From contig DASXUN010000030.1 in NCBI GenBank assembly GCA_036504815.1, positions 1 to 64,000 of the forward strand: a stretch of 64,000 bases of DNA. Reading direction: 5' to 3'. The notes under the pieces are model-generated. The model ran no database searches and had not been told where the DNA came from. It saw only the letters and a list, made by a program, of their open reading frames with translations. The number at the start of each line of letters is the position of its first letter. The stretch's first letter is position 1. The translations under genes were made by a program, and so were the position numbers. The DNA is from Gemmatimonadaceae bacterium (GTDB taxonomy: Bacteria; Gemmatimonadota; Gemmatimonadetes; Gemmatimonadales; Gemmatimonadaceae). Below are positions 13,576 to 14,364 of the stretch, piece by piece.

Positions 13576-14364
13576 ATGCCAGACGACGCGCAGGCGCAAG
13601 CACCGCTTGAGACGGTGCTGAAGGACGAGATCATCCGCATGTATCAGGAAGTGGCCGATCGCCCGGAGGGCGAGTACCACTTCTATCACGGACGTGAGGC
13701 GGCCGAACTGTTCGGCTACGAACCCAGATGGCTCGACCGCGCCCCACCGGGCGCCGTCGCGTCATTTGCCGGCGTCGGCAACCCGCATCTGCGCAGCGCG
13801 ATCCGCGCGGGCGAGACGGTCCTCGACCTCGGCAGCGGGGCCGGATTGGACGCGATCATCGCGTCGTGGAGCAGCGGTCCGACGGGCAAGGTCATTGGCG
13901 TCGACCTCAACCCGACGATGTGTCTGAAGGCGCAGGCGCATGCCGCAGCCTCCGGATCAACGTTGCAGTGCCATCAGGGGCAGATGGAGAACATCCCGCT
14001 GCCCGACGGGTCCGTGGACGTCGTGATCTCGAACGGGGTGGTCAACCTCTCGTTCCGCAAGCGAAAGGTGATCGAGGAGCTCTTCCGGGTGCTGCGACCA
14101 GGGGGACGGTTGTCGATCACCGACATCGTCAGCGCCAAGCAGCTGTCACAGTCAATCGTCAATGACCCGAAGTTGTGGGCGAGTTGAATTGGAGGCGCTC
14201 TCCTGGAAGGAGAGATGTTTCGTCTCATCGAGGAATCCGGCTTCAGCCGGGTCCGCTCCATCGTGGTGCCGAACTTCCGGTTCAGGAAGTCGACCACGCA
14301 GAACTCGGCGGAAGCCTTCGGCGTCAAGGCGGTGCTCTTCACCGCGGCAAAGCCGATGGGCTGA
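13576..14364 (+). CDS. ArsM-like SAM methyltransferase, probable selenoprotein (in-frame TGA as Sec)
   Basis: A class I SAM-dependent methyltransferase of the arsenite-methyltransferase-like group: GETVLDLGSGAGLDAI (SAM loop), VIGVDLNPTMC, DVVISNGVVNLS, FRVLRPGGRLSITDI. The frame meets TGA at 14185-14187 (codon 204) and then continues in the same frame for 58 codons to TGA 14362-14364, giving 262 aa. Around the TGA the protein reads KLWAS-stop-IGGALLEGEMF. Homologues have Cys at this place (WxxCIxGAL), equivalent to an arsenic-binding Cys of ArsM enzymes. Seventeen bases after the TGA begins the loop of a SECIS-like hairpin. I therefore read the TGA as selenocysteine. The alternative is a nonsense mutation that leaves a 203-aa truncated protein. 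Upstream in-frame starts are not supported. Confidence 0.75.
14198..14214 (+). promoter_or_regulatory. SECIS-like hairpin downstream of in-frame TGA
   Basis: CTCTCCT (14198-14204) pairs perfectly with AGGAGAG (14208-14214), leaving GGA as the apical loop (or UGGAA if the last pair is open). The loop Gs are 18 and 19 nt after the TGA, close to their position in the E. coli fdhF SECIS. A G within the first two loop bases and a loop about 16-37 nt after UGA is the known bacterial pattern. The hairpin lies inside the coding frame, as bacterial SECIS elements do. Confidence 0.65.

Follow-up and report, generated by a model that had tools for sequence, protein, structure and literature searches.

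Fused Sec families were reportedly described in an mSystems paper of 2025. Eight Sec-containing ArsM-like sequences were detected in an ocean survey published in 2008 (PMC2398784), and a 2026 review lists one Sec ArsM family as "experimentally verified" together with three fusion families (PMC13188914, Table 1). An earlier sequence-only reading of the locus analyzed here stated that it knew of no described Sec form of this exact subgroup; Sec-containing ArsM in general is, in fact, on record, both in these two papers and in the models NF041536, NF041537 and NF047649. What is new is a stand-alone, single-Sec branch with Gly154 in Gemmatimonadota, which scores below all curated cut-offs, has haloarchaeal and proteobacterial Cys relatives and carries a covarying SECIS element. 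It is represented in the window (the whole 64,000-nucleotide stretch of Gemmatimonadaceae DNA that was analyzed) by one gene. With a probability of about 0.88, its product is predicted to be a single-Sec protein of the ArsM methyltransferase fold, whose selenolate would hold or accept a soft substrate. The relevant features are as follows.

13576..14364, + strand: ArsM-like SAM methyltransferase gene, 262 residues, with predicted TGA readthrough at codon 204 and its own stop, TGA, at 14362-14364
13774..13776, + strand: Val67 codon, aligned with CmArsM ligand Cys72; V in 39/39 close relatives
13825..13851, + strand: SAM-binding motif DLGSGAGLD, residues 84-92; near invariant across relatives
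14035..14037, + strand: Gly154 codon, aligned with CmArsM ligand Cys174; G in 41/41 close relatives
14185..14187, + strand: predicted selenocysteine codon TGA (U204), aligned with CmArsM C224; TGA in the window and in 42/43 related loci (genome_contigs)
14198..14214, + strand: SECIS-like hairpin immediately 3' of the Sec codon, with a 7-bp stem and a GGA loop; covarying, and absent in TGC relatives

The Sec form of arsenite methyltransferase (NF008823/PRK11873; PMC13188914, PMC2398784) shares with the window protein the fold, the single Sec, the UxxG motif (UIGG in the window) and the stand-alone organization. However, the window protein falls below the curated cut-off of this family and has Val and Gly at the two other ligand positions, in a comparison that was made with the Sec representative by description only. 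In the ArsM/AhpD (NF041537), ArsM/DUF2284 (NF041536) and methyltransferase/UXPK-star (NF047649) families, Sec is located in UxxG of the methyltransferase domain, as in the window protein, but these families also continue into a C-terminal extension that holds further Sec, whereas the window protein ends after the methyltransferase domain. In an indirect probe by substitution, G154C and V67C introduced in silico gained 6-7 bits with the canonical model and lost about 2-3 bits with the three Sec fusion models. Because all three scores decreased, the fusion families probably lack the two cysteines as well.

CmArsM, CrArsM and human AS3MT (4fr0, 6cx6, 5evj, 8xt7) have the overall fold in common with the window protein, and its Sec is found at the place of CmArsM C224. 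However, Val, Gly and Sec replace C72, C174 and C224, and the protein, at about 260 residues, is shorter than these enzymes (about 380). TtArsM of Thermus thermophilus (PMC8649762) likewise has a reduced set of active-site chalcogen ligands, but, unlike the window protein, it has a single Cys at position 77 together with two histidines and contains no Sec.

Gene, fold and ligand positions

The reading frame runs from ATG at 13576 to the stop at 14362-14364, and its single internal TGA (...NDPKLWAS-U-IGGALLEGEMF...) is followed by 58 sense codons. The start is backed by relatives, with M at position 1 in 20/20 covering rows of the alignment. The protein matched Pfam Methyltransf_31 (1.3e-26), and both the ArsM fold and the SAM motif are present. 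It scored 196.9 bits against the NF008823 arsenite methyltransferase model, below the curated cut-off of 263, and 196, 174 and 167 bits against NF041537, NF041536 and NF047649 (cut-offs 510, 575 and 460). The C-terminal extension and further Sec of the fusion selenoproteins are missing, as the frame closes at 14364. The terminal TGA at 14362, which is followed by Pro-Lys as in UXPK-star, was considered as a second Sec codon and rejected: relatives stop there with TAG, TAA or TGA. No sequence conservation was found past the stop among the relatives aligned, and no relatives of the methyltransferase were found on viral contigs.

For the AlphaFold model of the protein (pLDDT 91), ArsM structures were the best PDB matches, with 6cx6_B at the top (Z 25.8, rmsd 2.4 A over 225 residues, 32% identity); the first methyltransferase other than ArsM had Z 22.1. 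When the protein was aligned to CmArsM, C224, C174 and C72 corresponded to U204, Gly154 and Val67, so that none of the three ligand positions holds Cys. Gly154 is kept in every examined member of the wider clade, in the Sec or the Cys form, and residue 67 varies there among V, T and M. Canonical ArsM proteins have Cys at the place of Gly154, including a separate canonical copy in the source genome (C23:5067-5903, 343 bits), which has all three cysteines.

Candidate substrates and gene neighborhoods

Sequence comparison shows that UGA 204 is decoded as Sec by SelA, SelB, SelC and SelD, with the SECIS hairpin lying inside the coding sequence. Sec204 sits where CmArsM has its metalloid-binding Cys224, and in the proposed mechanism its selenolate may hold, or be the acceptor for, a soft substrate beside the methyl group of SAM. 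With both remaining arsenic ligands missing, a substrate with a single chalcogen contact would be likelier than free arsenite bound on three cysteines. Candidates include a methylated arsenical, a selenium, tellurium or sulfane-sulfur species, another soft metal or metalloid, and a thiol. The window protein is most likely a SAM methyltransferase that depends on Sec and acts on a soft element bound through a single selenolate. The sequence-only reading had proposed methylation of arsenic, selenium or a related soft metal or metalloid; the wider wording can be retained as a proposal, but arsenic has become doubtful in view of Val67, Gly154 and the canonical ArsM copy.

The window gene stands alone; it is flanked by a divergent gene for an FG-GAP/UnbV protein and a convergent one for malic enzyme. 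No conserved operon that might serve as a substrate clue was found across the loci of relatives, where contexts vary. Because the neighborhoods are not conserved and those in the window are uninformative, the substrate has to be inferred. ArsR-rhodanese, rhodanese-MBL and MFS genes recur at five loci (L021, L036, L038, L062 and L063), and MBL or MFS adjoins L110 and L111. The rhodanese-MBL neighbors show weak similarity to sulfur transferase/dioxygenase. Other neighbors were DUF4395 (L026, L058 and, by eye, L142), a YgaP-like TM protein (L032), cation efflux (L024), CopC/CopD with an RND pump (L026), and a second methyltransferase (L049; similar by eye at L057 and L029). These neighbors point to soft-element or sulfane-sulfur chemistry, short of proof.

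A rival reading, that the protein is a selenolate-assisted methyltransferase for a chalcogen (sulfide or persulfide, selenide, or a tellurium compound) or for a low-molecular-weight thiol, is a tentative one, with somewhat less than an even chance. It would be consistent with the recurring rhodanese-MBL, ArsR-rhodanese regulator, YgaP-like TM and MFS exporter genes, with an SQR-like flavoprotein next to two relatives in a KSB1 genome, and with OsmC beside the haloarchaeal Cys forms. However, such genes occur at a minority of loci and do not adjoin the gene in the window, and heavy-metal efflux genes are also among the neighbors of relatives.

It is unlikely that the protein is a conventional arsenite methyltransferase with Sec simply substituted for one arsenic-binding Cys. 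The nearest structures are ArsM enzymes and Sec is located at the C224 place; moreover, ArsM with its UxxG motif is among the experimentally verified Sec families of the review (PMC13188914). However, the Val and Gly at the C72 and C174 places are invariant in close relatives, the NF008823 score (197) is under the cut-off (263), and a canonical ArsM is already present in the genome. In CmArsM, neither C174A nor C224A methylates arsenite or methylarsenite (PMC3877260). On the other hand, a single-cysteine arsenite methyltransferase exists in Thermus, where one Cys suffices (PMC8649762), so the loss of two cysteines does not by itself disqualify arsenic. Weighing the Val67/Gly154 ligand positions and the inactive CmArsM mutants against this enzyme, we regard arsenic as a possible substrate of the Sec-dependent methyltransferase, not as the default one.

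Decoding of the internal TGA

Cys was never found at the Sec column in the close clade. The 43 related loci are mostly from Gemmatimonadota; 42 have TGA there, and the one remaining locus lacks the column. When 395 Gemmatimonadota genomes were scanned, the close clade again had TGA, and an outer ring at 40-46% identity contained some TGA forms and some forms without a stop; a second TGA counted in two relatives was their terminal stop. Compared with eight relatives, dN/dS was 0.07-0.12 before the TGA and 0.14-0.19 after it, so synonymous changes prevail and the frame is under purifying selection both before and beyond the TGA. Cys occupies the column in five Gemmatimonadota forms, Chelatococcus, haloarchaea and canonical ArsM; among the Cys forms, the codon is TGC in Gemmatimonadota and Chelatococcus and TGT in haloarchaea.

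The arms of the hairpin directly downstream are CTCTCCT (14198-14204) and AGGAGAG (14208-14214), with the loop G's 18-19 nt past the TGA. Taken alone, its stability exceeded chance only modestly (MFE -16.8 kcal/mol, z -1.95, 9/200 shuffles as good). The doubt left by this single-sequence signal is removed by the conserved TGA, the dN/dS after it and the covariation of the hairpin, which was 0.262 versus 0.131 in shuffled data (16 cells changed on both sides; 0/500 shuffles). The loop-adjacent pair is U-A, C-G or U-G, and the C-G form accompanies a Leu-to-Pro change in the protein; another pair is flipped between two clades, C-G in the first versus G-C in the second. The hairpin is different and weaker in one two-sequence branch (L110, L111). 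Folding of the TGC rows gave no such hairpin, with a mean MFE of -7.8 kcal/mol against -15.5 and -17.8 kcal/mol in the two TGA groups. No Rfam family reached gathering score within the window, and matches at the hairpin were at chance level.

The source genome (3.5 Mb, 31 contigs, 99.4% complete) carries selA, selB, selD and tRNA-Sec with a TCA anticodon. Its selD gene (G000:C12:109459-110382; L016 about 1520-1540) has an in-frame TGA in the N-terminal motif RCAG-U-ASK and, therefore, SelD itself would be a selenoprotein; the tRNA-Sec gene lies ~100 bp downstream of selD. By hand count over the 395 Gemmatimonadota genomes, tRNA-Sec was present in 45/50 genomes with the TGA form and in 234/345 others (Fisher p 0.0008); the five TGA-form genomes without a tRNA-Sec match all have selA. 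By contrast, selA was found in one of the five Gemmatimonadota Cys-form genomes and was missing in four. The 47-48-bit tRNA-Sec matches in Cys-form genomes are probably not tRNA-Sec, since they are barely above the cut-off and these genomes lack selA.

Taken together, the TGA at 14185-14187 is, on the comparative evidence, a well supported, genuine selenocysteine codon. The sequence-only reading had described a lone TGA in an otherwise intact frame with 58 codons to a normal stop, at the conserved Cys of an ArsM motif and ahead of a perfect 7-bp hairpin, and had concluded that the enzyme uses Sec. The frame, the low dN/dS after the TGA and the hairpin geometry agree with this description, and the column is that of the Cys of GECLGGAL in CmArsM. 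The searches for selA, selB, selC (tRNA-Sec) and selD and the homolog alignment that it had proposed yielded the complete machinery and a column of U or C only, with exchange between them. Decoding of UGA as some other residue is very improbable: no support for it was found, and against it speak this column, the Sec machinery in genomes with the TGA form, the use of TGA as the terminal stop of the same gene and the missing hairpin in TGC forms. Nonsense mutation, sequencing error or gene decay, always conceivable for a TGA within a frame, is yet more remote and is ruled out by conservation, as dozens of independent genomes share the TGA, dN/dS past it is ~0.17, the hairpin is kept and the Sec machinery is present.

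Relatives and Sec/Cys exchange

In the phylogenetic tree, the clade with V, G and U or C at the three ligand positions splits from canonical C/C/C ArsM with support 100/98, and within it two Sec lineages each pair with a Cys lineage (95/83 and 92/65). These pairings suggest that Sec and Cys were exchanged at least twice within the clade; it should be noted that the tree is midpoint rooted, that the 92/65 fork is weak and that the direction of exchange is not resolved. The Cys relatives belong to Gemmatimonadota, haloarchaea and one proteobacterium (Chelatococcus). The full reading, namely a stand-alone class with at least two Sec/Cys exchanges whose lone selenolate acts on a non-arsenic sulfane-sulfur, selenium or tellurium substrate, may be correct, although we hold it with less than even confidence.

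Standard gene callers would end the window protein at codon 203. Because of this, and because the protein falls below the cut-offs of curated models, members of the family would be overlooked or annotated as truncated; TGA forms occur in about 50/395 sampled Gemmatimonadota genomes, mostly in the close clade. Here, Sec use appears separated from the classic three-cysteine arsenic site, and the gene offers a clean example of a SECIS element within the coding sequence with covariation. The natural Sec/Cys pairs (Gemmatimonadota, haloarchaea, Chelatococcus) are suited to testing the contribution of selenium to methyl transfer.

Several other observations were made among the relatives. Close-clade members at 77-80% identity (L027, L041, L044 and L058) are on contigs labelled Eisenbacteria, Bipolaricaulota or KSB1, which reflects either gene transfer or mis-binned contigs. 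In KSB1 genome G395, contig 153 (L142 6958-10612; L132/L138) contains two related Sec methyltransferases ~3 kb apart. Near them are a DUF4395-like protein and a flavoprotein with similarity to sulfide quinone reductase of the selenoprotein type (210 bits, below the cut-off of 525); a search for Sec-type SQR in the source genome gave just a 51-bit partial match. The haloarchaeal Cys orthologs (L119, L121 and L122) are located on plasmids directly after an OsmC gene, with DUF1059 in 2/3. The Chelatococcus Cys form, also on a plasmid (L120 5148-6762), directly follows genes for a sigma-70 family factor and a zf-HC2 protein, which suggests stress-regulated expression.
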